Source of the DNA: Pseudomonadota bacterium
GTDB lineage: Bacteria > Pseudomonadota > Gammaproteobacteria > Xanthomonadales > Rhodanobacteraceae
DNA: 64,000 nucleotides
Direction of reading: 5' to 3'
NCBI GenBank assembly: GCA_021827205.1
Contig: JAKAWV010000004.1
Span: 89,491 to 153,490, forward strand
How positions within the stretch are numbered: position 1 is the first letter of the stretch; each line of letters begins with the position of its first letter. The position numbers and the translations under genes were made by a program. Below the pieces are notes generated by a model. That model worked only from the letters and a program-made list of their open reading frames with translations. It was not told the origin of the DNA and searched no databases. Below, one piece after another: positions 3,318 to 64,000 of this stretch.

Positions 3318-3337
3318 GACATTCCCGGCAGCGGCGC

Positions 3338-5356: not shown

Positions 5357-5365
5357 GAAGCGTCC

Positions 5366-5671
5366 TCAGCCGCGCAAATCATCGAATTCGGCCACGTTGA
5401 TCGTGCGCCTGTTGCGGAACAGCAGGGTCAGGATGGCCAGACCGATCGCCGCCTCGGCCGCCGCCACCGTGAGTATGAAAAACACGAACACCTGCCCCGA
5501 AACATCACCCAGGAAGCGCGAGAAGGCGATGAAATTGATGTTGACCGCGAGCAGCATCAGCTCGATCGCCATCAGCAACACGATCACGTTCTTGCGGTTG
5601 ATGAAAATGCCGGCCACGGCGATGCAGAACAGCACCGCGCCCAGGACGATGTAGTGCGCCAGAGTGATCAT
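5366..5671 (-). CDS. nuoK: NADH-quinone oxidoreductase subunit K
   Basis: Small membrane subunit of complex I (101 residues, three hydrophobic helices), homologous to MrpC. The membrane Glu residues known to matter for proton transfer lie in helices 2 and 3 ('[13 protein letters not shown]' near residue 36 and '[13 protein letters not shown]' near 72). The ATG overlaps the nuoJ stop as ATGA, so translation is probably coupled. Confidence 0.96.
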
Positions 5672-6285
5672 GATTTCGCTCCATCATCGCCGCGTTCCGC
5701 GGGCATGCTGACCAGGCGCACGCGATCGCGTGCCACGGCCGCCACCTGTTGCGATGCGCTCTGATGGCGCACGCCGGTGCGCTGACGCAAGGTCAGCGCC
5801 ACAGCCGCGACGATACCGACCGTGAGGATCAGCGCAGCCACCTCGAACGGCAGTAGGTACCGGGTATATAGCGCCTGCCCGATCCATGCCACGTTGGATT
5901 CGCCGCGCATGGTCGCCGGATTCGGCGGCGGCGCCACTCGCATGGCGCGCACACCGATCATTGCGATCATCTCGGCCAGCATGATCAGCGCCACGCCGAT
6001 ACCCACCGGCAGATAGCGGATGAAGCCCTCGCGCGCCGCGGCGACCTTGATGTCCAGCATCATCACCACGAACAGGAACAGGACCATCACCGCGCCCACG
6101 TACACCACGATCAACGCCAGCGCCAGGAATTCGGCATCGAGCAGCATCCAGATGCAGGCGACGCTGAAAAACGTCATCACCAGGCTGAGCACCGCATGCA
6201 CCGGGTTGCGCAAGCTGATCACCAGCAGCGCGCCGAGCACGGCGAAAAAGGCAAAGAAATAGAACGCCAGAAGTTGAATGGTCAT
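5668..6285 (-). CDS. nuoJ: NADH-quinone oxidoreductase subunit J
   Basis: Membrane subunit of complex I. I start it at the ATG giving '[16 protein letters not shown]' (205 residues), because the open frame continues upstream into nuoI without resembling the family. Five hydrophobic segments follow, with the typical '[14 protein letters not shown]' near residue 25. The C-terminal tail is hydrophilic and poorly conserved. It lies 17 bases after nuoI and overlaps nuoK by four bases. Confidence 0.94.
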
Positions 6286-6302
6286 GGCAGTGTCCTCGGC
6301 GC

Positions 6303-6791
6303 TCAGCGGAAGGCGGCGTCTTGCGCGCGCGCTGCGGCGATGTCGGTTTCGAAACGGTCGCCGATGGCCAGCAACTGCGTCTTGTTGACAATGTTCTCGC
6401 CGCGATGCTCGAAGTGATACTCGTGGATATGCGTCTCGACGATGGAATCCACTGGGCAACTCTCTTCGCAGAATCCGCAAAAAATGCATTTGAACAAATC
6501 GATGTCATAGCGCGTGGTGCGGCGCTGGCCGTCGGCACGCGGCGCCGAGTCGATGGTGATCGCCAAGGCTGGACACACCGCCTCGCACAGCTTGCAGGCA
6601 ATGCAACGCTCCTCGCCATTCGGATACCGACGCAGCGCGTGCAGCCCGCGAAAGCGGTTCGACTTGGGAATGTGCTCCATCGGGTAGCGCATGGTGTATT
6701 TGGGCTTGAACAGGTAGCCCATGGTCAGCCCCAGCCCCTGGAATAATTCCAGCAGCAGCAGGCTCTTCAGATAACGCATGACGCGGCTCAT
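6303..6791 (-). CDS. nuoI: NADH-quinone oxidoreductase subunit I (2x[4Fe-4S])
   Basis: Peripheral-arm ferredoxin-like subunit of complex I that carries clusters N6a and N6b and passes electrons towards NuoB. Two CxxCxxCxxxCP motifs are visible: '[12 protein letters not shown]' near residue 63 and '[12 protein letters not shown]' near 102. The length (162) is normal. The N-terminal amphipathic helix would anchor it to the membrane arm. Only three bases separate it from nuoH. Confidence 0.97.
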
Positions 6792-6794
6792 GGC

Positions 6795-7814
6795 TCAGGC
6801 CCCGGGCGTGACGATGTGAAAGTACTTCAGGCAACCCGCCACCAGCACCCACAGCAGCGCGATCGGGATGAACACCTTCCAGCCCAGACGCATGATCTGG
6901 TCATAGCGATAGCGCGGAAAGCTGGCGCGGAACCACAGGAACAGGAAGCTGACCAAGAACGCCTTGGCCAGCAACCAGAAGAAACTGCCGTCGCCGATCG
7001 CGCCCCAACCGGCAGGAAATGGACTCATCCAGCCGCCGAAGAAAAAGATCGGCGTCAGGAACGACACCAGAATCATGTTGGCGTATTCGGCAAGGAAGAA
7101 CAGCGCGAACGCCGCGCCGGAGTATTCCACGTGGAAGCCGGCGACGATCTCGCTCTCGCCCTCGGCCACGTCGAACGGCGCGCGATTGGTCTCGGCCACG
7201 CCAGACACGAAGTACACCACCACCATCGGCAGCAGCGGCAACCAGAACCAGTGCAGCAGTCCGCCCTGCTGGGCGCGCACGATGTCGCTCAGATTCAAGC
7301 TGCCGGCCAGCACCAGCACGCAGACCAGCGCCAGACCCATGGCCAACTCGTACGACACGACCTGTGCGGCCGAACGCATCGCGCCCAACATCGCGTAGCG
7401 CGAGTTGGATGCCCAGCCGGCAATGATGATTCCGTAAACACCCAGCGAGGTCATCGCCAGCAAATACAGAATGCCGGCGTTGGCGTTGGACAGCACCACG
7501 CCGTCGCCAAACGGAATCACCGCCCAGGCCGCCAGGGCCGGCACCAGTGCCAGCATCGGCGCCAGGAAAAACAGGAAGCGACTGGCGTTGGTCGGAACGA
7601 CGATCTCCTTGATCAACAGCTTCACCACGTCGGCGAAAGCCTGCAGCAGGCCCAACGGGCCGACCTGGTTCGGCCCCATGCGCACGTGCATCCAGCCCAG
7701 CACCTTGCGCTCCCAGTACACGAACATCGCCACGGCGATGACCAGCGGGAGAACAATGGCCAGGATCTTGATCAGCGTCCACAACACCAGCAGCAGATCG
7801 GCAAGCATGCTCAA
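6795..7814 (-). CDS. nuoH: NADH-quinone oxidoreductase subunit H
   Basis: Membrane subunit at the junction of complex I's arms, forming part of the quinone chamber. It has 339 residues, about eight helices, and family signatures '[19 protein letters not shown]' near residue 33 and '[19 protein letters not shown]' near 215. Its ATG overlaps the nuoG stop (ATGA), indicating translational coupling. Confidence 0.97.
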
Positions 7815-10165
7815 GCCTTCGTGATGTGCAGCGCGGCGCCGTGTGGCGGCAACGCGTCGGTTTCGGGATAGGTAGCGTCGATGCGTACCGCACCGCGCGC
7901 GATGGCGGCATCAATGACCACCGGCAAACTGATGCCCTCGACACTGACTTGCGCGCCACCGTGCACACCCAGCGCCAGCGCGTCCTCGGAATTGAGCACA
8001 GCCTGTGCCGGGCGCGTCAGCGGGTGCGCCTGCAACGCGACAGCACGGCGCAACACCGCATCGCCGCGATATATCGGCACGCCAGCGATGCGCTGCAGTG
8101 TTCCGGCGGGAACGCTTGCTGGCGCCGACGCCAAAGCCGTGCCCGGCGCAGCGTTCCGCGCCAGCAGCGGCGCCAGCTCGGCGCGTAGTTCGGCCAGTTC
8201 GGTGAACTCAAAGCCGGGCAGCCCCAACAGACCACCCAACGCACGCAGTGCCTTCCAGCCGGCACGCGCCTCGCCCGGCAACTTGGCGCCCGCCGCGAAC
8301 GGCTGCGGCGTGCCTTCGAGATTGATCAGCGTCGCGTCGATTTCCGGCGTGAGCCCGATCGGCAGGATCACATCGGCCAGCCCGCGCACGCGCTCGCTGG
8401 CATAAGCCGAGAATGCAATCACACAGTCGGCGGCACGCAGCGCTGCCTGGGCCTTGCCGCCGTCGGCGAAGTCCTCGGGCACCTCGGCGCCATACAGTAC
8501 GTAAAGCTGGCGCGGCTGCGCCAGCATCGCGTCCAGCGCCATGCCACCCTGCGTGGGCAGCACGCCGGCGCGCGCCAGACCCAATGCGTTGGCGCCATCA
8601 GGCACCGCGTTGAAAGTCGCGCCCGTCGCGGCCGCGATGTAATGCGCCAGCGCGCGCAACCACGATGCCTGCGCATGCCGCTGCGCCTGCAAGCCCAGCA
8701 ACACCGTGCCAGCACTGGCCTTGCGCAGCGCCTGTGCGGCTGCGCGCATCGGCTCGCTGACGCTGGCTGCGGCCACGAGGGCGCGCAGCGCCTCGGGCAC
8801 CGCGGGCGCGGCGTCCAGTTCGGAGACTGCACGCGCCAATTGCGCTAGCGTCGCCGGCAAGGCGCGCGGCGTGGCAACGAACTGCTCGCTCAGCGTGAAA
8901 TGGGTGTCGTGGCGTTGCGTGGCGACGGCAAACACCTTGGCGCCGCGCTTGACCGCTTCGCGCAGACGATGATTGACCAGCGGCAGCTCACTGCGCAGGT
9001 CGCAGTCGACCAGTAGCGCGGCACCCACGGTTTGCAGCGCTTCTACGCTGCGCGTCCACGGCTGCGCAACCGGTGCGTCCGCGAAATCCAGCGTGCGCAG
9101 GCGGTGATCGAGATTGGCGCAACCGAGACCTTGGGCCAGACGCGCCAGCAGCGCGCCTTCCTCGCAGGATGTCGCCGGCTGCACCAGCACGCCGATGTCG
9201 CTGCCGGCCACCGCGCGCAGGCGCGCGGTGGCCATGTCCAACGCATCGTCCCAATCGGTCTCGATCCAGGCACCGTCGCGCTTGACCAGTGGCCACTGCG
9301 CACGGTCCCCGGCGTACAGGCCCTGATGGCTGTAACGGTCGCGATCGGACAGCCAGCATTCGTTGATGGCTTCGTTGTCGCGCGGCACCGTGCGCAGCAC
9401 CTCGCCGCGGCGCGTATGCAGCCACAGGTTGGAGCCCAACGCGTCGTGATAGCCGATGGAGGCGCGCGCGATCAACTCCCAGGCGCGCGCCTGGAAGCGG
9501 TACACCTTGTCGGTCAGCGCGCCGACCGGGCACACGTCGATGATGTTGCCCGACAACTCGCTGTCGATGCTCTTGCCGATGTAGGTGCCGATTTCCAGAT
9601 GCTCGCCGCGCGACATGCCGCCCAGCTCGTAAGTGCCGGCGATCTCGCTCATGAAGCGCACGCAGCGCGTGCACTGGATGCAGCGCGTCATCTCGGTGGC
9701 CACCAGCGGGCCGAGGTCTTCATCGGCGACCACGCGCTTGCGCTCGTTGTAGCGCGACACCGAGCGCCCGTAACCCAGCGACACGTCCTGCAGTTCGCAC
9801 TCGCCGCCCTGATCGCAGATCGGACAGTCCAGCGGATGGTTGATCAGCAGGAACTCCATCACATCGCGTTGCCAGTGCAGCGCCTTTTCGGAGCGCGTGT
9901 GCACCTTCATGCCCTCGGCCACCGGCGTGGCGCAAGCCGGCTGCGGCTTGGGGATGGGCTTGCCGCCCATTTCCACCTCGACCAGGCACTGACGGCAATT
10001 GGCGGCAATCGGCAATTTGTGGTGATAGCAAAAGCGCGGAATGGCAATGCCGACCTTGTCCGCGGCCTGGATGATCATGCTGCCCTTGGGCACCTGCAGG
10101 GCATGACCATCGATCTCGATATTGACATGATCCGGCGCGGCGCCAGCGGCGGGTTGCGCGCTCAT
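7811..10165 (-). CDS. nuoG: NADH-quinone oxidoreductase subunit G (Fe-S, molybdopterin-oxidoreductase-like)
   Basis: Largest peripheral subunit of complex I, an electron relay. The ATG at 10165 gives 784 residues; the open frame upstream runs into a repeat array and is not coding. A plant-type [2Fe-2S] domain has Cys46, 57, 60 and 78. The HxxxCxxCxxxxxC segment near residues 110-125 ('[10 protein letters not shown]') binds another cluster, and '[16 protein letters not shown]' opens the next. The C-terminal two thirds resembles the molybdopterin oxidoreductase fold, though no cofactor is expected there. A 172-base repeat-rich gap separates it from nuoF. Confidence 0.95.
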
Positions 10166-14346: not shown

Positions 14347-14901
14347 TCAGCGCGCGATGGTGCTGGTGCGGCGGATTTTCTGCTGCAATTGCAGGATGCC
14401 GTGGATCAGCGCTTCGGCCGTGGGCGGGCAGCCCGGCACGTAGATGTCCACCGGCACGATGCGGTCACAGCCGCGCACCACCGAATACGAGTAGTGGTAA
14501 TAGCCGCCGCCGTTGGCGCAGGAGCCCATCGAGATCACCCACTTGGGATCGGGCATCTGGTCGTAGACCTTGCGCAGCGCCGGCGCCATCTTGTTGACCA
14601 GGGTGCCGGCCACGATCATCACATCGGACTGGCGCGGGCTGGGGCGGAACACCACGCCATAGCGATCCAGATCCAGACGCGCCGCGCCGGCGTGCATCAT
14701 CTCCACCGCGCAGCAGGCCAGGCCAAATGTCATCGGCCACATCGAACCGGTGCGCGCCCAGTTCATCAGCGCGTCGATGCTGGTGGTGGCGAATCCATGC
14801 TGCATCACCGGGTTGTCCGGCGCCGGTCGCAGAATGTCGTCGACTAGGTCCAGCGGCTCCGGGTTGTGCATCACCCGGTCGAAGCTCTGGATCATTCCCA
14901 T
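14347..14901 (-). CDS. nuoB: NADH-quinone oxidoreductase subunit B ([4Fe-4S] N2)
   Basis: Holds cluster N2, the last electron carrier before quinone. Ligands are the adjacent Cys pair in 'LACCAVEMM' near residue 53, a Cys in '[16 protein letters not shown]' near 118, and one in '[11 protein letters not shown]' near 149. The start at 14901 (184 residues, '[10 protein letters not shown]') overlaps the nuoA stop by ten bases; an ATG two codons later is an alternative. Confidence 0.96.
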
Positions 14902-15251
14902 TCCAGCGCTCCCTTCTTCCAGATGTAGATGAAGCCAACCACCAGCAAGCCAATGAACAAGGCCATTTCGATCAGTGCGATCAGGCCGATGCGGTCGAAC
15001 ACCACCGCCCATGGAAACAGGAAGGCGATTTCCAGATCGAAGATGATGAACAGGATGGCGATGAGGTAGTAGCGCACGTCGAACTTCATGCGCGCGTCCT
15101 CGAACGCCTCGAAGCCGCACTCGTAGGGCGCGAGCTTCTCGGCTGCTGGATTCCTGGGCGCAACCAGCAGGCCGATGGTCAGCAGGGCCAGACCCAATCC
15201 CGCGGCGACGGCCATGAACAGCAGAATCGGCCAATATTGATCGAGTAGCAC
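14892..15251 (-). CDS. nuoA: NADH-quinone oxidoreductase subunit A
   Basis: Small membrane subunit of complex I with three helices. The family begins near '[11 protein letters not shown]', but the nearest in-frame ATG lies inside the upstream tRNA gene. I therefore choose the GTG at 15251, which has GGAGGA about ten bases upstream and gives 119 residues, the usual length. The signature '[20 protein letters not shown]' lies near residue 43. First gene of the nuo operon, 66 bases after tRNA-Leu. Confidence 0.92.
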
Positions 15252-15317
15252 GGCTCGAACGTCCTCCGCGTCTGGCGCTGTACGGCCCTGTCGGGCGCAG
15301 CGCAGTGAGTGACAGTA

Positions 15318-15402
15318 TGGTGCCCAAGAGGGGACTCGAACCCCTACGACTTGCGTCGCTACCACCTCAAGGTAGTGCGTCTACCAATTCCGCCACCTGG
15401 GC
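15318..15402 (-). tRNA. tRNA-Leu (anticodon GAG)
   Basis: The minus strand folds as a class II tRNA: acceptor GCCCAGG pairing with CTTGGGC, D-loop with GGTAGACGC, anticodon stem CTACC-TTGAGGT-GGTAG giving anticodon GAG, a variable arm, T-arm GGGGTTCGAGTCCCC, and an encoded CCA end. It reads CUC and CUU codons. Enterobacteria also keep a GAG-leucine tRNA next to secG, so the context is ancient. It is probably co-transcribed with secG and processed. Confidence 0.97.
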
Positions 15403-15428
15403 CTGTGATTGTGGATCGAACTCTGCCG

Positions 15429-15839
15429 TTACTTGCCGCCCGCGGCCTCCGGCTTCGGCGCAGGTGCGGCAGGAGCGGGAACCGGCGCCCTCGGCGCGGC
15501 GGGAACCGCCCTCTGCACTGGCTGCGTCGTCACCTTCTTGGTGGCTGCGGCAGGCGCGGCACCGGCCATCACGCCCAAGCCTTGCTGCGTGCTGGCTTGT
15601 GGCGTACCGGCACGACTGAGATAAATGGCCATGCCGAGACTGACCACGAAAAATAGCGCCGCCAGCACGGCTGTGGCGCGCGACAGAAAACTGGACGAGC
15701 CGCGCGCGCCGAATACGGTGCCTGACGCGCCACCACCAAAGCCGGCGCCGGCGTTGGCGCCATCACCGCGCTGCAGCAGGATCAGCACGATCATGCTTGC
15801 GGCGATCAGCACGTAAAGAATGGAGAAGATGGTGAACAT
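15429..15839 (-). CDS. secG: Preprotein translocase subunit SecG
   Basis: Small inner-membrane subunit of the SecYEG protein-export channel. 136 residues: helix 1 (about 4-22), the conserved loop 'QRGDGANAGAGFGGGASGT' near 24-42, and helix 2 (about 55-75). The tail after residue 80 is long and Ala/Pro/Lys-rich, as in many xanthomonads and probably disordered. It lies between tpiA and tRNA-Leu on the same strand. Confidence 0.95.
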   Translation of the reverse strand: MFTIFSILYVLIAASMIVLILLQRGDGANAGAGFGGGASGTVFGARGSSSFLSRATAVLAALFFVVSLGMAIYLSRAGTPQASTQQGLGVMAGAAPAAATKKVTTQPVQRAVPAAPRAPVPAPAAPAPKPEAAGGK

Positions 15840-15863
15840 GCGTATGTCTTGAACCGGAGCGGA

Positions 15864-16601
15864 TCAGTGTGCCGCCGCGCAGATCGCGAGGAATTCCTCG
15901 GCCAGCAGCGAGGCGCCACCCACCAACCCACCATCGATATCGGGTTGGGCGAACAGTTCCGGCGCATTGGCGGCCTTGACGCTACCGCCGTAAAGCAGCC
16001 GGATCAGCCGTGAGAGTTTAGCATCGTGCGCGGCGAGTTGGCTACGCATGAAAGCGTGCACGGCCTGTGCCTGGACCGCGCTGGCGGTATGCCCGGTGCC
16101 GATCGCCCATACCGGTTCATAAGCCATCACGACGCCGGCAAAACGCTCGCCCAGCAGATGCAGCGGCGCCTGTATCTGCGTGGCGATCACGCTTTCGGTG
16201 ATGCCGCGCTCGCGCTCGTCCAGCGTCTCGCCCACGCACAGCACCGGGGTCAGTCCGCACTCTATGGCGCGCTGCAGCTTGGCCGCGATCAGCGCATCGT
16301 TCTCGTGGTGATACTGGCGGCGCTCCGAATGCCCAACCAGCACCCAGCGCGCGCCGATCTCGTGCAGCATGGCGCCGGACACCTCGCCGGTGTAGGCGCC
16401 CTGCGCGTGCGCGCTGAGATCCTGCGCGCCAATACCGACTGCACCACGCGCCAGATGCACCGCCTGCGCCAGATAAGGGAACGGCGGAAACACCGCCACT
16501 TCGCATGCTGGCGGTTGCGCGGCCAGCGTGCCGAGCAGCGTCGCGGTCAACGCGTTCGATCCGTGCATCTTCCAGTTCGCGGCAACGAGCTTGCGGTGCA
16601 T
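15864..16601 (-). CDS. tpiA: Triosephosphate isomerase
   Basis: Interconverts dihydroxyacetone phosphate and glyceraldehyde 3-phosphate in glycolysis. The ATG at 16601 gives 245 residues beginning 'MHRKLVAANWKMHG'. Catalytic residues are visible: Asn and Lys in 'ANWKM', His in 'LVGHSERR' near residue 95, Glu in 'AYEPVWAIGTG' near 164, and the phosphate loop 'LLYGGSVKAAN' near 205. It probably starts the transcript that continues into secG, 24 bases on. Confidence 0.97.
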   Translation of the reverse strand: MHRKLVAANWKMHGSNALTATLLGTLAAQPPACEVAVFPPFPYLAQAVHLARGAVGIGAQDLSAHAQGAYTGEVSGAMLHEIGARWVLVGHSERRQYHHENDALIAAKLQRAIECGLTPVLCVGETLDERERGITESVIATQIQAPLHLLGERFAGVVMAYEPVWAIGTGHTASAVQAQAVHAFMRSQLAAHDAKLSRLIRLLYGGSVKAANAPELFAQPDIDGGLVGGASLLAEEFLAICAAAH

Positions 16602-16631
16602 GAGCTTCCCCGATCCGTGTTCCCCGCATGC

Positions 16632-16661
16632 AGAATAGCCAGCGCTTGGCGGCGCGCGCAA
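16632..16661 (-). promoter_or_regulatory. Candidate promoter of tpiA-secG-tRNA
   Basis: On the minus strand a TTGCGC element (16656-16661) is 18 bases from TATTCT (16632-16637), about 30 bases before the tpiA ATG. The match to a sigma-70 promoter is reasonable but unproven; the region is shared with the divergent SDR gene. Confidence 0.4.
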
Positions 16662-16705
16662 CGCGCACAATGCGCGCCTTCCATCACGCCACGTCGAGGT
16701 GAACC

Positions 16706-17548
16706 ATGTCCGATTCTCCACGCTGGGCTCTGGTCACCGGCGCCTCGGCGGGCATCGGCGCCGCATTCGCGCGTGCCCTCGCAGCGCAAGGCTGCGCGCT
16801 GGTGCTTACTGCGCGCCGCGTCGAGCGCCTGCAAACCCTTGCGATTGAACTCGAACAGGCGCACGACACGCGCTGCGTGATCCTGCCTGCCGATCTGGCC
16901 GACCCCACCGCGCCCGCGAACCTGTGCGCGCAACTGGCCGCGCGCGGCATCGGCGTCGATATCCTGATCAACAACGCGGGCTACGGGGTGCCTGGAACCT
17001 TCGAAGCCAGCGTCTGGGCACGACACGCCGATTTCATCCAGGTGATGATGACCGCACCCACCGAACTGGCGCACCGACTGCTGCCCGGCATGCGCGCACG
17101 CGGCTACGGACGCATCATCAACGTCGCTTCGCTGGCCGGGCTGGTTCCCGGCACCGCCGCGCATACGCTGTACGGCGCCAGCAAGGCCTATCTCATCCAC
17201 TTTTCGCAGTCCCTGGGCCAGGAAAATCGCGCCTGCGGCGTGCACGTGTGCGCGCTGTGCCCGGGCTTCACCTGGTCCGAGTTTCACGATGTCAGCGGCG
17301 CACGCACGCAGGCCTCGCGCATGCCGCGCTGGATGTGGATGGGTGCCGCGCGCGTGGTGCGTGAAGGCCTCGTCGCTGTCGAACGCGGCGCGCTGGTGTA
17401 CGTACCCGGAAGCATCAACCGCAGCATCAAGACGCTGTTCAAGCTGCTGCCCGACCGCCTCGCACTGACGCTGATCGCGCGCCGCGCGCATCAGTTTCGC
17501 GTCAGCGATGGCGCCGCCGCAGAGCAACCGTCACGGCGCGACCATTGA
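16706..17548 (+). CDS. SDR-family NAD(P)-dependent oxidoreductase
   Basis: Classical short-chain dehydrogenase/reductase, 280 residues. The Rossmann motif 'TGASAGIG' lies near residue 11, 'NNAGYG' near 90, the catalytic Ser in 'NVASLAG' near 140 and the YxxxK pair in 'YGASKAY' near 155. It resembles the DltE/YqjQ-like subgroup of unknown substrate. It is divergent from tpiA and convergent with the VIT gene, so it is likely a single-gene transcript. The substrate cannot be told from sequence. Confidence 0.88.
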   Translation: MSDSPRWALVTGASAGIGAAFARALAAQGCALVLTARRVERLQTLAIELEQAHDTRCVILPADLADPTAPANLCAQLAARGIGVDILINNAGYGVPGTFEASVWARHADFIQVMMTAPTELAHRLLPGMRARGYGRIINVASLAGLVPGTAAHTLYGASKAYLIHFSQSLGQENRACGVHVCALCPGFTWSEFHDVSGARTQASRMPRWMWMGAARVVREGLVAVERGALVYVPGSINRSIKTLFKLLPDRLALTLIARRAHQFRVSDGAAAEQPSRRDH

Positions 17549-17565
17549 TCGCGCAAACGCTGCGC

Positions 17566-18264
17566 TTACGCGCCGATCCAGCGCGCGACCAGAAACGCCG
17601 CGGCGGAAGCCAGTCCGCCGACCACCACGGTTTGCAGCGCGCCGCGCAGCGCGCCGGTGCCGGTGTAGCGCCCTTTGAGCGCACCGAAAACCGCCAGCGC
17701 GCCCAGCGTGGCGACCACGGAAACGGCCAGCGCGCGCTCCACGCTGGTCATGAGCATGTAGGGCAGCAACGGCACCAGGCCGCCAACGACATAGGCGCCG
17801 CCGATGGTCAGTGCGCTCTGCAGCGCGCGCCCGGGACGCGGCTGCTCGAGGCCCAACTCGTAGCGCATCATGAAATCGACCCAGGCATCGTGGTCGCGAT
17901 GGAAAGCGCTGAGGATCGGCTGGCAGTCCGCGCGGGTGAGGCCGTAGCGCTCGAAAATCTCGACCACCTCGCCTTCCTCGTGTTCGGCCAGATCGCGCAC
18001 CTCACGCTGCTCGCGCCGGCGTTCGCTGGCGTAGTGTTCGGCATCGCCGCGCGCGGCGAGATAGCCGCCCAACCCCATGGCGATGGCGCCGGCGGCGATC
18101 TCGGCCACGCCGGCGGTGACGATCAGGCGATTGGCCGCGACCGCGCCGGTGAGACCCGCGGCCAGGGCAAATGGCACGGTGAGGCCATCGGCCATGCCGA
18201 TGACCAGATCGCGCACGCGATCGGATGCGTTGAAGTGCTTTTCACGATGCTGCGCGACAGCCAT
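17566..18264 (-). CDS. VIT1/CCC1 family metal transporter
   Basis: Predicted inner-membrane Fe2+/Mn2+ transporter of the VIT1/CCC1 family, 232 residues. The N-terminal helix has 'DLVIGMADGLTVPFALAAGL' near residue 20, the diagnostic motif. A cytosolic insert rich in Glu and Arg (about residues 75-135, 'EHEEGEVVEIFERYGL') corresponds to the metal-binding domain, followed by three C-terminal helices. The physiological metal is not evident. It lies downstream of glmM with a 124-base gap. Confidence 0.88.
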   Translation of the reverse strand: MAVAQHREKHFNASDRVRDLVIGMADGLTVPFALAAGLTGAVAANRLIVTAGVAEIAAGAIAMGLGGYLAARGDAEHYASERRREQREVRDLAEHEEGEVVEIFERYGLTRADCQPILSAFHRDHDAWVDFMMRYELGLEQPRPGRALQSALTIGGAYVVGGLVPLLPYMLMTSVERALAVSVVATLGALAVFGALKGRYTGTGALRGALQTVVVGGLASAAAFLVARWIGA

Positions 18265-18388
18265 GCATGAAGCTCCAGGGAATCAGGTGTGCTCAGACCA
18301 GATGAATTTCACGCAGACGCCGTTGCCGATCACCGTGCCCGATGATCGGCTGCGGATAGTGGCTGGGATGCGAGCGTGGGAACCTGCT

Positions 18389-19801
18389 TCATGAGAGGGC
18401 CTCGGCGCCGGGCGCGCCGCCAGCCGCCAGTCTTACGGTTTCGGCAAGTTGCGTGGCGAGCTGATCGACCCGTCGCGCGTCGCGCGCCTCCACCGTCACG
18501 CGCACCAGCGGCTCGGTGCCGGAGGCACGCAGCACCACGCGTCCATGCCCGGCCAGCGCGCGTTCGGTGGTCGCGAGCGCCGCACGCACCGCGGGCGCCG
18601 CCAGCAGCGCATCAGCGGGGACGGAGATGCGCAGATTGATGGTGCGCTGTGGCCACTTGTCCAGTTCGGCGCAGGCCTGATGCAACGACTGGCCGCTGCG
18701 CGCCAGCGCTTCCAGCACCGCCAGCGCGGTGACGATGCCATCGCCCGCGCCGGCGCGATCCAGGCACAGCATGTGGCCGGATGCTTCGCCGCCGAGCACG
18801 CCACCGTGCTCGCGCAGCGCGCGGCGCACGTGACGGTCGCCGACATTGGCGCGCACAAACGACGCGCCCAGCGCGATGATCGCGCGCGCCAGCGCCTCGT
18901 TGCTCATCAGCGTACCGACCACCACGCCACGCAACAGGCCGCGCGCCGCCAGGTCGCGCGCGAGAACGAACAGCAAGTCATCGCCATCGACCAACGCGCC
19001 CCGGGCATCGACCATCAGCACGCGATCACCGTCGCCATCGAAAGCGATGCCGAGGTCAGCCCCCGCATCCAGTACCGCGCGCTGCAAGGCCTGCGGCTGC
19101 GTGGAGCCAAATCCGGCATTGATGTTGAAACCATCCGGCGCAGCGCCGATCACCGTGAGCGCGGCGCCCAGGGACTGAAACACGCGCGGAGCAACGTGGT
19201 AGGTCGCGCCATGCGCGCAGTCCAGCACGATGCGCAATCCCCGCATGTTGAAATCCGCCGCCACCGTACCGCGACAGAATTCCTCGTAGCGTTGCGCCGC
19301 ATCGATGACGCGCCGCGCCTTGCCCAGCGCGTGCGAATCGACGGTGGCGAAGGTGTGCGCGACGGCAGCCTCGATGGCCAGCTCCAGCGCATCGTCGAGC
19401 TTCTCGCCATCGGCACCAAAGAATTTCACGCCATTGTCGTCGTAAGGATTGTGCGAGGCGCTGATCACGATGCCGGCGCTGGCTCCGAGCGTTTGCGTGA
19501 GCCACGCCACCGCCGGAGTCGGCAGCGGCCCGAGCAGGTGCACGTCGCAACCGGCCGCCACCAGCCCGGCTTCGAGCGCTGCCTCGAACATGTAGCCGGA
19601 CACGCGTGTGTCCTTGCCGATCAACACCGTGCCACGCGCGCCGCAGCCCAACACGGTACCGGCGGCGTGGCCGAGGCGCAGCATGAAATCGGCGCTGATC
19701 GGCCACGTGCCAACGCGACCGCGAATGCCGTCGGTGCCGAAATACTGGCGCGTGGCCGTGCTTGCGGCGAGCGCCGAGGTTGCAGGAGAGGAATCGGACA
19801 T
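18389..19801 (-). CDS. glmM: Phosphoglucosamine mutase
   Basis: Converts glucosamine 6-phosphate to glucosamine 1-phosphate for peptidoglycan and LPS. 470 residues from ATG 19801 (an ATG four codons upstream is possible). Substrate loop 'FGTDGIRGR' near residue 20, active-site phosphoserine in '[12 protein letters not shown]' near 118, Mg loop 'FDGDGDRVL' near 260, sugar loop 'GEASGH' near 340 and phosphate loop '[11 protein letters not shown]' near 430. It follows folP by 40 bases. Confidence 0.96.
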
Positions 19802-19841
19802 GCGCGCAAGCATAGCGCCGCGCGCTGCTGCCGCGAGCGGC

Positions 19842-20750
19842 TTAATCCTCGTCGTCGCGGCGCGGTCGGGCGCTGCGCGGCGACGGCGTACCCGCGGGCG
19901 CTGCCGCAGTCTCCACGGCCTGCCACACCGCCAGCGCTTCACGCGTGGCGGCGACATCATGCACGCGCAGGATGCGCGCGCCACGTTGCGCCGCCAGCAG
20001 CGCGGCGGCGACCGAGCCAATCACGCGCTGCGTGGGCGCGCGCTGCCCGGTGAGTGCGCCGATCATCGACTTGCGCGACAGCCCGACCAGCAAGCCCGCG
20101 CCCAAGCCATGGAAGCGCTGCAAGGAATGCAACAAGGCCAGGTTGTGCTCAAGCGTCTTGCCGAAACCGAAGCCGGGATCGACCAGCACGCGGCCGCGCG
20201 CGATACCGGCCAGCTCGCAGGACAACAGGCGCTCGGTGAGAAAGCGATGCACGTCCTCGATCACATCCGCGTAGTGCGGCGCCTGCTGCATGCTGCGCGG
20301 CTCGCCCTGCATGTGCATGAGGCACACTGGCACACCGAGTGCGGCGGCGGCATCCAGTGCACCGGGTTCACGCAGCGCGCACACATCGTTGATCAAGCCG
20401 GCGCCGGCAGCCACCGCCGCGCGCATGACCTCGGGCTTGCGCGTGTCGACCATCAGCGGCACGCCGCAGCGCGTGGCCAGACCCGCGATCACCGGCACGA
20501 CGCGCTGCAGTTCATCCGCGAGCGACACCGATTCGGCGCCAGGGCGCGTGGATTCGCCACCGATGTCCAACAGATCGGCGCCTTCCTCGATCAGGCGCAA
20601 GCCATGCGCGATGGCGCTTTCCGCATCGGCATGCTGGCCGCCATCCGAAAACGAATCCGGGGTGACGTTGACAATGCCGGCGATACGCGCGCGATCCAGC
20701 GGCAGCGGGCGTCCGGCGCAGTTCAACTGCGGCGTGGTGTCGAACATCAT
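19842..20750 (-). CDS. folP: Dihydropteroate synthase
   Basis: Joins p-aminobenzoate to the pterin pyrophosphate in folate synthesis; the sulfonamide target. 302 residues from ATG 20750 (an ATG one codon later is equally possible). The signature '[14 protein letters not shown]' lies near residue 24, '[14 protein letters not shown]' near 60, '[10 protein letters not shown]' near 120 and '[13 protein letters not shown]' near 205. Because a terminator-like hairpin separates it from ftsH, folP-glmM may form its own transcript. Confidence 0.96.
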
Positions 20751-20874
20751 CGGGCTTTTCGCTTGCGCGGAGACTTCGCCAGGCCCGGCGCAACAGCGAC
20801 GGCCCACCGGGGTTTCAGCGGTGCGCGTGCTCTCGCGATCGGATCGTTCGCATGAAGCATCACCCGCTTCCATG

Positions 20875-20902
20875 AAAAGGCCAGAGCGAACTCTGGCCTT
20901 TT
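20875..20902 (-). terminator. Intrinsic terminator after ftsH
   Basis: A perfect 12-bp inverted repeat AAAAGGCCAGAG / CTCTGGCCTTTT around a CGAA loop (UUCG on the transcribed minus strand) lies 22 bases beyond the ftsH stop and ends in a U-run. It is symmetric and could act in both directions. Confidence 0.85.
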
Positions 20903-20924
20903 CGCGGCGTTGCGACAAGTACTC

Positions 20925-22874
20925 TCAGGCTTGCGGCGCGGGCCGACCGACGCCATCACTGGGCTGGGCGGCGCTGCTGCTGCCGGCCGCACTGCCCCCG
21001 GTACTGACACCGCTACTGCCGGCAACATCATCATGTGCATGCCAATCGCTGGGCGGACCCGGCTCGCGCCCGGCCATGATCGCCGCGATCTGCTCGCGGT
21101 CGATGGTTTCGTACTGCATCAGCGCCGCAGCCATGGCGTGCAGGATGCCCATGTTGTCGGTGAGGATCTGGCGCGCACGGCTGTAGCCGGCGTCGATGGT
21201 GGTGCGCACCACCTCGTCGATGCGCCGCGCGGTAGCCTCGGATACGGTCTTGTGCTGGGTGACCGAGCGCCCGAGAAACACCTCGTCCTCGTCCTCGCCG
21301 TAAGTCATCGGACCCAGTTCCTCGCTGAGGCCGTATTTGGTGGCCATGTCGCGCGCCAGTTGCGTGGCGCGCTGGATGTCATTGCTGGCGCCAGTAGTCA
21401 CCTTGTCGGCACCGAAGATCAGTTCCTCGGCCACGCGCCCGCCAAACAGGCTGGCCAGCCGGCTCTGCAAATGCGTGCGGCTGTGGCTGTAGCGATCGGC
21501 CTCGGGCAGGAACATGGTCACGCCCAGCGCGCGCCCGCGCGGGATGATGGTGACCTTGTGCACCGGGTCGTGGTCAGGCACGTTGAGGCCGACGATGGCG
21601 TGCCCGGACTCGTGATACGCGGTGAGGCGCTTTTCATCCTCGGTCATGATCATCGAGCGCCGCTCGGCGCCCATCATGATCTTGTCCTTGGCGCGCTCGA
21701 AGTGGTCCATGCGCACTTCGCGCGAGTTCTCGCGCGCGGCGAACAGCGCGGCCTCGTTGACCAGGTTGGCCAGATCGGCGCCGGTGAACCCGGGCGTGCC
21801 GCGCGCGATGATCATGGCATCGACGTCGCCGCCCACCGGCACCTTGCGCATGTGCACCTTGAGGATCTGCTCGCGACCACGCAAATCGGGCAGGTTCACG
21901 AATACCTGGCGATCGAAGCGACCCGGGCGCAACAGCGCAGGATCAAGCACATCGGGGCGGTTGGTAGCGGCGATGACGATGACGCCCTCGCTGCCCTCGA
22001 AGCCGTCCATCTCGACCAGCAACTGATTGAGCGTCTGCTCGCGTTCGTCGTGACCGCCGCCCAAACCGGCGCCACGATGGCGGCCGACCGCGTCAATCTC
22101 GTCGATGAAGATGATGCACGGCGCGTGCTTCTTGGCCTGCTCGAACATGTCGCGCACGCGCGCGGCGCCGACGCCGACGAACATCTCGACGAAATCCGAG
22201 CCCGAGATCGAGAAGAAGGGTACCTTGGCTTCACCGGCAATGGCCTTGGCCAGCAACGTCTTGCCGGTACCCGGCGAGCCCGCCAGCAGCACGCCGCGCG
22301 GGATGCGTCCGCCCAGCTTCTGGAACTTGGCCGGATCCTTGAGGAAATCAACCAGCTCGCGCACATCGTCCTTGGCCTCTTCGCAGCCGGCGACATCGGC
22401 GAAGGTCACCTTGACCTGATCCTCGCCCTGCAGCTTGGCGCGCGAACGCCCGAACGACATGGCGCCGCGACCACCACCGCCGGACTGCATCTGACGCATG
22501 AACCAGAACAGCACACCGAAAATAAGCAGGATCGGCACCCAGTCAATCAGGATCTTGACCAGAATGTTGCCGCCATCGGCCGGTGCCTGGGTGACTTGCA
22601 CGTCGTGCTTGAGCAGGCGCGGCACCAGACTGTCATCAAAGAACGGCGCCACTGTGCGCAGCGCGCTGCCGTCGCGCAACTTGCCGGTGATGTTGGGCGG
22701 GTTGCTGGCGCTGATCGTCACCGCGCCGACGTTGTTGTTGTCGACCTGCCGCACGAAGTTGGTATAGCTCATCGCCTGGCTGCCGCGATCGGATGGCGCG
22801 AAACTCTGGAACACGGCCAGCAAAACCACCGCGATCACCAGCCACAACACCAGATTCTTGGCCATGTCGTTCAT
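20925..22874 (-). CDS. ftsH: ATP-dependent zinc metalloprotease FtsH
   Basis: Membrane-bound AAA+ protease that degrades misfolded and regulatory proteins. 649 residues: TM1 (about 7-24), a periplasmic domain, TM2 (about 105-124), the AAA module with Walker A '[10 protein letters not shown]' near 200, Walker B '[11 protein letters not shown]' near 255 and second-region-of-homology arginines, then the zinc site 'HESGHAIVG' near 420. The tail is Gly/Ser-rich. It follows rlmE directly: the four-base overlap couples the two genes. Confidence 0.97.
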
Positions 22875-59371: not shown

Positions 59372-59518
59372 GCCTGGGTGGTAAGGGGCCGAGCAAGCCG
59401 CGCGCTCAACCATCTGCGAACGTCGTCGGGACGTGATGAATGAAACTTCTCAATTGACGCCATAGCAGCGCAAGGATGAACATCCGACGCTACGCCCACG
59501 GTGTTAGCCCCGCCCCCA

Positions 59519-60193
59519 ATGTCACGTTCACCTTTCGAGCTTAGAAACACGCACGGCATGCCCGTCAATCCGGACGATCTACTTGCGGATATGCGTCGCG
59601 TTGCAGAGCAGATTGGAACGGCCGCCCTCACTATCCGCGACTACCAACGTCACGGACGCTTTGCTCCATCCACGGCAATGCGGCAATTCGGCTCATGGAA
59701 TGCTGCGCTAAGTGCCGCCCAGCTTGTGACGTCCAACTCGTTAAACATCTCGGACGAGACGCTGTTCGAGAACATACTTGTGCTTTGGCAGCACTACGGC
59801 AGACAACCCCGTCGCTCCGAACTTGCATCACACCCGTCAACCATTTCACAAAGCCCGTACAACAGGCGTTTCCGCAGTTGGTCGGCTTCGCTTGTTGCAT
59901 TCGTAGAATATGCAAACACTTTGGATACGCCCGTGCCGACGCCGGTTACGGACCCAGCGCGCCGTCGGACTAGCCGCGACCCATCACTTCGCTTGCGTTT
60001 CAAGATCCTTCAGCGTGATCGCTTCACGTGCTGTCAGTGTGGAGCGAGTCCCACCGTCACAGCTGGCGTTGAGCTTCACATAGACCACATTATCCCTTGG
60101 AGTCTGGGCGGCGAGACGGTCCTAGAGAATCTCCAAACACTTTGTCTGCCCTGCAACATCGGCAAAGGCAATGCAGTCGTACCGCAGGGCTAA
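59519..60193 (+). CDS. HNH endonuclease with HEAR repeats
   Basis: 224 residues from ATG 59519 (ATG 59558 is an alternative). Two homing-endonuclease-associated repeats occur, about residues 17-67 ('TIRDYQRHGRFAPSTAMRQF') and 76-126 ('SPYNRRFRSWSASLVAF'). An HNH nuclease follows near 158-220: 'CCQCG', 'ELHIDHIIPWSLGGE', 'LCLPCNIGKGN', with both zinc CxxC pairs and the catalytic His. Such genes are usually stand-alone mobile or homing nucleases, or defence components. The sequence is less GC-rich than the adjacent his operon, suggesting transfer. Confidence 0.85.
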   Translation: MSRSPFELRNTHGMPVNPDDLLADMRRVAEQIGTAALTIRDYQRHGRFAPSTAMRQFGSWNAALSAAQLVTSNSLNISDETLFENILVLWQHYGRQPRRSELASHPSTISQSPYNRRFRSWSASLVAFVEYANTLDTPVPTPVTDPARRRTSRDPSLRLRFKILQRDRFTCCQCGASPTVTAGVELHIDHIIPWSLGGETVLENLQTLCLPCNIGKGNAVVPQG

Positions 60194-61011: not shown

Positions 61012-61370
61012 TCAGTCCAACCCCTGCCCCGTCAGCGCCACCATCCGCGCGATGTCGCCGTCCATCGCACGGTCGCGCGGCATGAAGGCCACCTCGCGGC
61101 GGATGGCTTCCAGGGCGCGCGCGACGGCGGCGCCGGGGCGGAACTCGGGCGCGTCGGCCAGGGCCTGCATCAGCGCGCGGGTCTCTTGTTCGAACTGCGC
61201 GTGCTGCGGGTAGCCGGCCTCGGGTGCGCCGCCGATCTTGGCGGCCAGCACGCGCCAGTCGCCGCGGCGGGCCAGGCGGCGCGCGGCGTTGAGCATGTCG
61301 CGGCGGTAGTCCAGCGCCTGCGCGGCGGTGTACTGCACGATCATGAAGCCGGAGTCGGTGGCGTCCTCGT
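61012..61370 (-). pseudogene. 3' fragment of an aromatic amino acid (histidine-type) lyase
   Basis: C-terminal part of an MIO-type ammonia-lyase, cut off from its 5' part by the insertion. It resumes at 'NEDATDSGFMIVQYTAA', exactly where the 5' fragment stops. It then passes directly to 'QALDYRRDMLNAARRLAR' and a normal C-terminus. Family members have about 75 more residues between these segments, including the PxSxxxxxEDH-type active-site stretch, so there also seems to be an internal deletion. The gene is therefore broken in two ways. Confidence 0.8.
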
Positions 61371-61380
61371 TGCGGATTCT
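61371..61380 (+). repeat. Left terminal inverted repeat
   Basis: TGCGGATTCT, immediately after the CTCGT target duplication at 61366-61370. Beyond it the left non-coding arm (61381-61733) holds GC-rich inverted repeats (CGGCCGGAAAGCGGCCG near 61554) and no gene on either strand that I can support. Confidence 0.9.
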
Positions 61381-61733
61381 TGAAGCCACTGACTGACATG
61401 CTGGCAATAGCTGACCTTCCGTACTTGCTGCCCGTAGTGCCTGCCCAGCATCATCGCCGCCAAGGACCGCAGATCTGAAGGCAGCCGACGTTGCAGCCCG
61501 AGGTGCAGAGAGGCAGAGTGCGGCCCTTTGCGGTCCGCCAAGCGTACCGATCCCGCGGCCGGAAAGCGGCCGCTTAAAGGCCGCGCACATACACCGGCAA
61601 CCACCTTGTCAATCGCATCACTGGTGATTTGACGCAATGGCGAATGGGCGGTGGGATTACAGTACCGCTGGATTTCGATATTGCGCTCGGCGCCACAGCA
61701 GAGCATCAAGAAGAACGCTCAGAGGCTCCAGAT

Positions 61734-63194
61734 ATGGATTTTTCTTTCAATCGGTTGGATGGTAGCCCTTGCATTGAACTGAAAGGGCTCCGTTGCATCA
61801 ACGTGATCCTCGGACGCAACGGCGCAGGCAAGAGTCAGCTCCTACGAGCACTTGACACCGAGATGGTTGCCAAGAACGAGACATACCGCGTCAGCTACGT
61901 CACGCCGGAGCGCGCAGGCACGTTTCGGCGCGACGCAAACGTCGAAGTCAACACCGTGAATTCGGCCCGGTGGGCCGCCAATACGCGGCGCGCCAATCAA
62001 GCACCCGGCTTCAAAGCGATGTCGCACCTTGCTCTGCGTAATGCTGAGCGTGCTTATCTGATTAAGCTCGAGGACAGTGACGCGCGCGGCAAGAGCTTCC
62101 AGCGTGACTGCCTTGATCCCATTAGTCGAATGTTGAGCAATGTCTCCATATCAAGAGGCGAGATGGACTTTGAGTTTCACTCGATCAACGGTGATGCAAT
62201 CAACGCCGACAATTTGAGCAGCGGGGAATCCGAAACAATTAGCCTCGCGTCAGAGGTTCTTAGCTTCCTTGCCGCCGTGGACCGGAGCAAGCTAAATGTC
62301 CTACTCCTCGATGAGCCGGATGTCCATCAGCATCCAGACCTGCAGGGGCGCTTTGGGCAGTACTTGCTGGAACAGGTGGGCAATCTCGAAGAAGAGGATC
62401 GCAAGAAGGTCGTAATCTGCATCGCGACGCACAGCACCCCTCTGGTGTGCGCGCTTGCGAGCAGCGACATGACCTCGATCGGCACTAAGGAATTCGACAG
62501 CAACATCGTTGATCTAGCTAAGCCAACAGACAACTTGCGCAAGGTTGCCCCGTTCTTCGGGCATCCGCTGTCACTGAGCTTGAGCCGCGATCCGATACTG
62601 ATCCTTGAGGGCGAGGATGACGAGCGCGTCTGGCAGCAGGCCGCGCGTACCTCCCAAGGAAAGATCCGGCTCTTCCCAGTGCTCGCTACGTCGGTGGGTC
62701 AGCAGTCTGAGTTGGAGACCTTCACCGATCGCATGCTGAAGGCGATCTACGATCAGCCATTGGCGTATTCACTGCGGGACGGTGATAAGAGGAATGGAAC
62801 TCTTTCCCCGACTGGGTGCGTCGAACGATTTCGGTTGCAGTGTTACGCCATTGAGAACATTCTCTTGACGACCGAGTGCTTGGCCAAGATGAATGTCGCC
62901 GACTGGGCTGACTTTCAGGCCAAGACCGCCAAGTGGATCACAGCCAACGTTGGACACAAGGCGATTCCTGATCTGCAGGCTCTCGTTGCATCGGTTGATC
63001 GCTTTAGGCATGAGAAGATCAAAGACATCCGCCATATCATCGTAGCCATCACAGGCACCAAGAAGCCCTGGGAGGTCGTCGTTGGACAGGCGCTGGCGGG
63101 TGCCATAGGGACACCCAGCGCGCCGACAGATCGGTTCGGCCTCCTGACATTCATCGGGGCAGACGCAGCCAGGAAGCTCCTCCATGCCGTGTGA
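61734..63194 (+). CDS. ABC-type ATPase fused to a TOPRIM/DUF4435-like nuclease domain
   Basis: 486 residues from ATG 61734, preceded by AGAGG; the frame is open further upstream but not family-like. ATPase half: Walker A 'ILGRNGAGKSQLL' near 26, signature 'NLSSGESETISLAS' near 160, Walker B 'VLLLDEPDVHQHPD' near 191 and H-loop 'CIATHSTPLV' near 235. C-terminal half: 'PILILEGEDDERVWQQ' near 287, the Glu and Asp of a TOPRIM, 'LRDGDKRNG' near 345 and 'CYAIENILLTTE' near 365, as in DUF4435. OLD nucleases and the PARIS pair AriA/AriB combine these activities, so a single-gene anti-phage effector is likely. It is the only cargo of the insertion and less GC-rich than the chromosome. Confidence 0.82.
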   Translation: MDFSFNRLDGSPCIELKGLRCINVILGRNGAGKSQLLRALDTEMVAKNETYRVSYVTPERAGTFRRDANVEVNTVNSARWAANTRRANQAPGFKAMSHLALRNAERAYLIKLEDSDARGKSFQRDCLDPISRMLSNVSISRGEMDFEFHSINGDAINADNLSSGESETISLASEVLSFLAAVDRSKLNVLLLDEPDVHQHPDLQGRFGQYLLEQVGNLEEEDRKKVVICIATHSTPLVCALASSDMTSIGTKEFDSNIVDLAKPTDNLRKVAPFFGHPLSLSLSRDPILILEGEDDERVWQQAARTSQGKIRLFPVLATSVGQQSELETFTDRMLKAIYDQPLAYSLRDGDKRNGTLSPTGCVERFRLQCYAIENILLTTECLAKMNVADWADFQAKTAKWITANVGHKAIPDLQALVASVDRFRHEKIKDIRHIIVAITGTKKPWEVVVGQALAGAIGTPSAPTDRFGLLTFIGADAARKLLHAV

Positions 63195-63463
63195 TTAGTG
63201 ATCCTCGCGGCAGCCGACGGATCCCGCCGCCGGCGATCGTTGCCGTAGTTGGAAGCGAGGGAGCCGCTTTAAAGGCCTGCATGGCGGGAGACCACGCTTT
63301 CTTGAATACAGGACTGTGGGGCAGCCGCAAGCCGCCGTTCGTCAACGCTGGCTCTCGTCGATCCAGACGCTGTTGATGACCGCAGAGCTGTTCAAAGCGG
63401 TCACCACCAGCAGCGCCGCGACAAAGTGGCCAGCGAATACCAGCACACCCGGACAGCGTAGCC

Positions 63464-63473
63464 AGAATCCGCA
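63464..63473 (-). repeat. Right terminal inverted repeat
   Basis: AGAATCCGCA, the exact complement of the left end, followed by CTCGT at 63474-63478. The preceding arm (63195-63463) is non-coding apart from an accidental extension of the lyase frame, and carries a subterminal GGCCAGCGAATACC motif that echoes the end. Confidence 0.9.
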
Positions 63474-64000
63474 CTCGTTGCCGGTGAGGAAGGCCGGCAG
63501 GCCGTCGTTGGTCGCGGCATCGACCAGCTTGGCGATGCGGCGTTCGGCGATCGAGGCCAGCACCGGGATCGCCGCCTTGACGTAGCTCATCGCCAGCGCC
63601 AGCGGCATGCCGTGGAAGTGGCCCGCGGAGACGACTTGATCCTCGATCGCCTGCGCGCCCTCGACATCGGGGAACAGCAGCGGGTTGTCGGTGACGGCGT
63701 TGAGTTCGATCTCGACCACGCGCGCGGCCTGCGCCAGCGCGTCGCGCACCGCGCCGTGGACCTGCGGGATGCAGCGCAGGCTGTAGGCGTCCTGCGGCTG
63801 GTGCTTCTTGCCGCCGCGGAACGGCAGGAAACGCGTGTAGAAGGACTCGCGGCCGTGACGCCGGTGCGCCGGCACCCAGTCCCAGGCCAGATCGAAGTGC
63901 AGCGCCTGGTCCTCGGGCTCGCGCCAGGCCTGCGCGGTCCAGGTCGCGAAGCGCGGCACCAGGTGGTAGGGGATGTCGATCAGGGTCGAGCCGGCCAGCA
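63474..64000 (-). pseudogene. 5' fragment of an aromatic amino acid (histidine-type) lyase, truncated by window edge
   Basis: The frame enters from beyond the window ('LIDIPYHLVPRFATW') and continues through lyase motifs 'QDAYSLRCIPQVHGA', 'ELNAVTDNPLLFPD', 'GHFHGMPLALAMSYVKAA' and 'DGLPAFLTGNE', where the insertion begins. After that the frame reads about 44 meaningless residues to a stop at 63342 inside the element. The MIO-forming Ala-Ser-Gly would lie outside the window. Substrate (His, Phe or Tyr) cannot be decided. Confidence 0.85.

Follow-up and report, generated by a model that had tools for sequence, protein, structure and literature searches.

The movement of single defence genes between genomes is usually attributed to phages, satellites, conjugative elements, and Tn7-like transposons of large size. 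In mobile insertion cassettes (MICs), a passenger gene lies between transposon inverted repeats without a transposase, and movement is expected to occur in trans; the ends of the Bacillus case are reportedly of the IS231 type. Tn3-type MICs have been described in Xanthomonas (PMC6304161), and mic elements carry qnrS2 in Aeromonas and were first seen in Bacillus cereus (PMC4444841). Here we analyze a 64,000-nucleotide stretch of DNA (the window; positions 89,491 to 153,490 of contig JAKAWV010000004.1, assembly GCA_021827205.1) from a bacterium of the Rhodanobacteraceae. Near its end lies an insertion that encodes no transposase; its single gene, framed by two arms, specifies a predicted ATPase-TOPRIM defence nuclease. 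We consider it likely that this element works like a mobile insertion cassette and would be served in trans by the IstA and IstB of a likely autonomous IS21-like relative.

The window element shares several features with MICs. Its passenger sits between terminal inverted repeats (TIRs), it was inserted as a unit with a target-site duplication (TSD), and a candidate autonomous transposon with related ends, its presumed cognate, is found in a congener and not in its own genome. It differs in that its ends are tied to IS21-type istAB rather than to Tn3, and in that its cargo is predicted to be anti-phage, whereas MICs carry effectors or resistance genes. The element had been proposed as an under-described vehicle in an earlier reading of the window (the original prediction). 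This description fits only IS21-type ends with defence cargo, since the MIC as a vehicle type is already known. A literature search judged by titles and abstract openings, with subscription papers mostly outside it, turned up no report of IS21-type cassettes that carry defence genes (Gabija, ATPase-TOPRIM). Compared with the vehicles usually invoked, a 2-4-kb cassette that lacks a transposase and exchanges its defence cargo between unchanging arms would be far smaller. Moreover, using the arms rather than the genes as the search query predicts where further defence genes sit.

IS21 elements generate direct duplications of 4-8 bp. The IstA/IstB pair and the end structure of this family have been described (PMC10122671). 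As in the IS21 family, the window element has TG..CA ends with a short duplication, and an istA-istB pair is present in its likely autonomous relatives (loci L125 and L127). Unlike IS21, the window element lacks istAB, and the autonomous candidate is much longer and includes an additional divergent gene. Tn7-like transposons spread Gabija and other defence genes (PMC8649781); IstA and IstB are described as relatives of TnsB and TnsC in PMC10293859, according to which no target selector has been reported for IS21. Defence genes, Gabija among them, are likewise carried by the elements described here, but these units are minimal and transposase-free, and a Tn7-type target-selection gene such as TnsA or TniQ was not recognized in them. 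One transposon on record from Ralstonia includes an IS21-family transposase alongside other genes (PMC7371123).

Direct reading of the sequence places the insertion at 61371-63473 (2,103 bp), inside a gene that we take from its sequence to encode a HAL/PAL-type lyase (Table 1). The perfect 10-bp TIRs, the inner TGCTGG blocks, and the CTCGT duplication that had been reported for it were all recovered when we re-read the sequence. The two ends agree at 28 of their outer 50 positions, with TGCTGG in register at positions 29-34, and this block is retained with small changes across 13 aligned ends. The element has a GC content of 58.0% compared with 66.4% for the window. Its only long domain-bearing gene encodes the ATPase, and open reading frames (ORFs) and a domain search revealed no transposase gene within the 2,103 bp. 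Taken alone, a TIR with a TSD is weak evidence. In 60 first-order Markov shuffles of the window, perfect 10-bp TIRs starting with TG and flanked by a 5-bp TSD, with ends 0.4-25 kb apart, arose at 0.75 pairs per shuffled window, which puts such a pair near chance level; none of the shuffled pairs also agreed at positions 29-34. A second perfect 10-bp inverted pair with a 5-bp flank match, at window 14693-22118, is regarded as chance. We accept the insertion as real because the arms recur around other cargo, eight of nine right arms share a CA end, and empty sites exist in relatives. The observation of a complete insertion is therefore confirmed.

Table 1. Features of the insertion and of the interrupted lyase gene, in window coordinates
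Feature	Position	Strand	Evidence
Lyase 3' part, with 171-bp in-frame deletion at GCGGCGGTGTAC repeat 61322-61333	61012..61365	-	
Target-site duplication CTCGT, left copy	61366..61370	no strand	sequence reading; empty site in relatives
Left terminal inverted repeat TGCGGATTCT, element start	61371..61380	+	perfect 10-bp inverted repeat
Left arm	61371..61526	+	83% identity to G000:C7 arm, 86% to G134:C25 arm
Second end block TGCTGG, left, end positions 29-34	61399..61404	+	
Cargo gene for ABC-type ATPase of 486 aa, TOPRIM-like part at C-terminus	61734..63194	+	
Right arm	63347..63473	+	present at nine loci, one genus
Second end block, right, CCAGCA on + strand	63440..63445	-	
Right terminal inverted repeat AGAATCCGCA, element end	63464..63473	-	perfect 10-bp inverted repeat
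Target-site duplication CTCGT, right copy	63474..63478	no strand	sequence reading
Lyase 5' part, runs past contig end	63479..64000	-	

Relatives preserve the site as it was before insertion. We searched 13 genomes of the genus, which is probably Metallibacterium, with window 61021-64000 as the query and the window's own genome among those searched. In eight of them (G126, G127, G128, G129, G131, G132, G135, and G136), the flank matches meet at the insertion point with an overlap of 8-12 bases. A 127-base probe made of the flanks and a single CTCGT was then compared with nine lyase loci on both strands. It matched without gaps at 100-127 of 127 positions in eight loci, one in each of the eight genomes; the second lyase locus of G136 did not match (61/127). 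These relatives thus hold the exact empty site that the original prediction had suggested looking for. Removing the element and keeping one CTCGT also returns the reading frame of the relatives (properly aligned with L152, L155, and L156), as had been claimed. However, the window lyase is still 171 bp (57 codons, in frame) shorter than theirs, owing to loss of the segment between GCGGCGGTGTAC repeats at a distance of 37-48 bp from the insertion, and therefore excision alone would not yield their full-length protein. The lyase copy in the window is doubly broken. An HNH endonuclease gene with homing-endonuclease-associated repeats lies 1.2 kb from the insertion (59501-60193).

The same ends occur around different cargo. 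When the element was used as a query against its own genome, both arms were matched at C7 (L004; 83% and 86% identity), where they form a 3,906-bp element with the TSD CAGCG and a complete Gabija system: GajA of 609 aa (PADLOC E 2.9e-300) and GajB of 578 aa (E 1.6e-266). This element has defence-like neighbours on both sides, a 1227-aa helicase with a NOV_C domain (L004 722-4405) and an AAA_21 protein (L004 8682-9962). A third complete element, in G134 (L034), spans 972 bp with the TSD ATCAGG and holds a 131-aa ORF. This ORF (L034 4301-4900) is bordered by an attC-like sequence, spotted by eye, and resembles an integron cassette inside a transposon arm pair. None of the three complete short elements contains a transposase. 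One further element, in G132, has a different Gabija as cargo and is missing its left tip. Pairs of GajA and UvrD-like GajB are found at L004, L036, and L127, and the GajA proteins of the three Gabija systems behind related ends are mutually distant (24-27% identical). Nine right arms, all from this one genus, could be aligned, and eight of them share their terminal CA, from which the ninth, L040, differs by one base.

Where might the missing transposase come from? With arm profiles we located weaker ends in G126, probably M. scheffleri. Two of these ends face each other and bound a 19,432-bp transposon (L125; C2:26325-45756), with a TIR matching at 10/10 positions, a GTGCTGG block, and a 6-bp TSD, GCCGAT. 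The duplications of the window element, L004, L034, and the 19,432-bp transposon thus measure 5, 5, 6, and 6 bp. By its left end lie a divergent 323-aa gene, istA, and istB, with IstB_IS21 at E 3.3e-69, Mu-transpos_C_2 and rve in IstA (rve slightly under its cut-off), and NF033546 at 260 bits. At a second G126 locus (L127; C5:350387), the profile detects a left end at E 3.6e-10. Behind it come GajB (E 5.9e-249), GajA (E 0), another transposase that is presumably ISAzo13-like, a 285-aa gene, istA, and istB. The two IstA proteins are 44% identical, and the 323-aa and 285-aa proteins are homologous over 105 aa. In the stretches compared, istAB by itself is not enclosed by strong inverted repeats (best 15/20 positions). 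These features support the proposal that the window element has IS21-like ends, and we infer from them that the 19,432-bp transposon is the autonomous form of the family. A transposase-free cassette had been said to be refuted if its ends turned out to delimit a longer element that encodes a transposase of its own. We did find an element of this kind, but it is a distinct relative from a different species and is thus what a model of mobilization in trans needs.

The divergent partner gene of istA is found at L125 1451-2422 and L127 8347-9204, and its 285-aa form has 103 homologues. The trio of this gene, istA, and istB recurs at L146 in another genus, where two search approaches gave no convincing ends. 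The protein model is all-helical with a weak helix-turn-helix-like N-terminal part, and the protein could be a regulator or a target factor. Foldseek returned no matches at E 0.001, plasmids gave none, and none of 47 IMG/VR stretches was confirmed; 369 genomes of the class gave none at E 1e-10, although an empty result there is uninformative.

The cargo protein contains GRNGAGKS and LSSGE, presumably the Walker A and signature motifs, together with LLLLDEP, LILEGEDD, and LRDGD. Among the homologues listed, most are about 485 aa long, and the start at 61734 is therefore preferred over a poorly supported TTG start at 61629. The protein belongs to a widespread compact family, which is a testable candidate for one-gene defence. 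A homologue is present in E. coli as an additional gene between yfgI and guaA (NZ_CP062824.1, 4404241-4405710), adjoining a broken integrase-core gene. Like PARIS (AriA/AriB, or fused AriAB), the cargo joins an ABC-ATPase to a TOPRIM-like part, and AriA tops its list in a fold comparison. Unlike PARIS, it is a single compact protein with no separate AriB gene. It shares the ATPase-then-TOPRIM order with Gabija, OLD nucleases, and the OLD protein of retron Eco8, and Gabija lies between the same arms elsewhere, but the window element has no UvrD helicase gene or retron partner. We predict that the cargo is an OLD/PARIS-like effector with an anti-phage role.

A housekeeping or competition role for this ATPase-nuclease is an unlikely alternative. 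AriAB is the best PADLOC match, yet the match is partial (289-527 of 694, E 6.7e-17). The TOPRIM part has the acidic motifs, but DUF4435 scores 17.1 bits there against a cut-off of 27, and the protein has no OLD-like_TOPRIM Pfam match. Moreover, the heads of SMC and Rad50 are level with AriA in the fold comparison (within 1 Z).

We propose that IstA with IstB, encoded by an autonomous relative that shares the cell, would act in trans on the ends of the cassette. The transposase binding sites would be located in the arms, and insertion would follow the IS21 pathway with a 5-6-bp stagger. By analogy with OLD/PARIS-type proteins, the cargo would sense phage infection through an ABC-ATPase dimer, and its TOPRIM part would cut nucleic acid. 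A broader version of this proposal is a modular IS21-driven family in which transposase-free cassettes repeatedly acquire ATPase-TOPRIM nucleases (one PARIS/OLD-like gene and three distant Gabija systems). Modules would be swapped between constant arms, and one istAB with an undescribed divergent partner would act in trans. We regard the odds for this broader version as evenly balanced.

Several observations weigh against mobilization by IstA and IstB in trans. The window element and the 19,432-bp transposon have arms alike over about the outer 50 bp only. A global alignment of the left arms of the window element and L127 does not separate from shuffled controls (0.76 vs a control average of 0.73); because this alignment is uninformative, the link to the istAB relative rests on the profile E-values and on the TIR and TSD. 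IS21 ends have two repeats each (L1/L2 and R1/R2); internal repeats of this type that at most 2 of 300 shuffles equaled were present at 2 of 11 ends. No right end is recognizable at L127, and istAB adjoins a homologue of the 323-/285-aa gene at three of eight loci; the other five (two of them fragments) have no istAB within the stretches examined. The remaining cargo of the 19,432-bp transposon, which includes a radical SAM protein, an HlyD and MacB-type export set, and an ISL3 transposase, is not defence-like, and hence the cargo of the arm family is not always defence. No informative empty site was found for the C7 element, and five of the nine right-arm loci (L035, L037, L038, L040, and L044) show no recognized left end in the stretches examined. 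Finally, the window's own genome has no istA above the cut-off (best 21 bits over 49 positions). This assembly is 99% complete in 43 contigs, and the cassette may now be stranded, or repeats may be missing from the assembly.

The lack of an istA above the cut-off in its own genome would also be expected if the element were what internal deletion has left of an autonomous IS21-like transposon, now immobile after losing its transposase, with the gene as ordinary cargo. The right arms without left ends and the G132 element without its left tip indicate that decay is common in the family, and cargo-bearing istAB loci are known in M. scheffleri. Nevertheless, the intact ends and exact duplication imply that the element was complete, and probably already short, when it last moved, and no long transposase gene remains inside it. 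Three short complete elements with different cargo at different sites also argue against such an origin, which we consider doubtful.

A transposase of another type could have made the ends. Termini of the form TG..CA occur with Tn7-, Mu-, Tn552-, and IS3-like transposases, and TG..CA with 5-6-bp duplications is common to several families. If a DDE transposase of one of these kinds were responsible, istAB in the 19,432-bp transposon would be cargo, as the ISL3 transposase inside it might suggest, and the lack of clear double repeats in most arms would fit. On the other hand, istAB with the same divergent partner occurs at two loci with these ends and without strong inverted repeats of its own, at one of them near the left end, and an IS21-like copy of the genus (L047) has ends 8/10 alike. 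A different DDE transposase is therefore improbable. L047, in G137, is an ordinary IS21-like copy bracketed by TGCGCATTCC and TGCGTATTCC, each 8/10 to the window TIR, with no duplication seen around it and an IstA 41% identical to that of L125. It was the nearest of eight loci with other IS21 copies of the genus considered as donors of the ends, none of which gave an exact match.

The attC-like sequence around the ORF of the G134 element might point to arms that serve as a conserved landing site, or as an integron-like boundary, at which genes are received, but this is extremely improbable, since entire arm-cargo-arm units with duplications occur at unrelated sites and the window unit is wholly missing from relatives, whose empty sites already contradict it.

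The arms have a narrow distribution. The right-arm pattern was found in six stretches from three metagenome-assembled genomes across a collection of 84,980 species, from which the window's own records may be excluded. Under stricter filters, the left-arm profile (E 1e-4) had matches in 5 of the 233 family genomes, each of them from this genus. Neither arm matched plasmids, the arm pattern had no match in IMG/VR, and weak arm-like matches at L128, L131, L132, and L133 could not be resolved into elements. L035 and L040 have common flanks, and L034 and L037 have a common right flank; each pair looks like a single old insertion in two species, in the case of L034/L037 on that side. At L037 in G132, a full right arm (4751-4887) and a partial one (5767-5830) lie about 1 kb apart, which suggests nested or tandem elements; the outer one shares its site with the G134 element. 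The right arm at L044 lies beside a C5 cytosine methylase and Vsr (3144-7975) and a fragment that we take to be IS1595-like.

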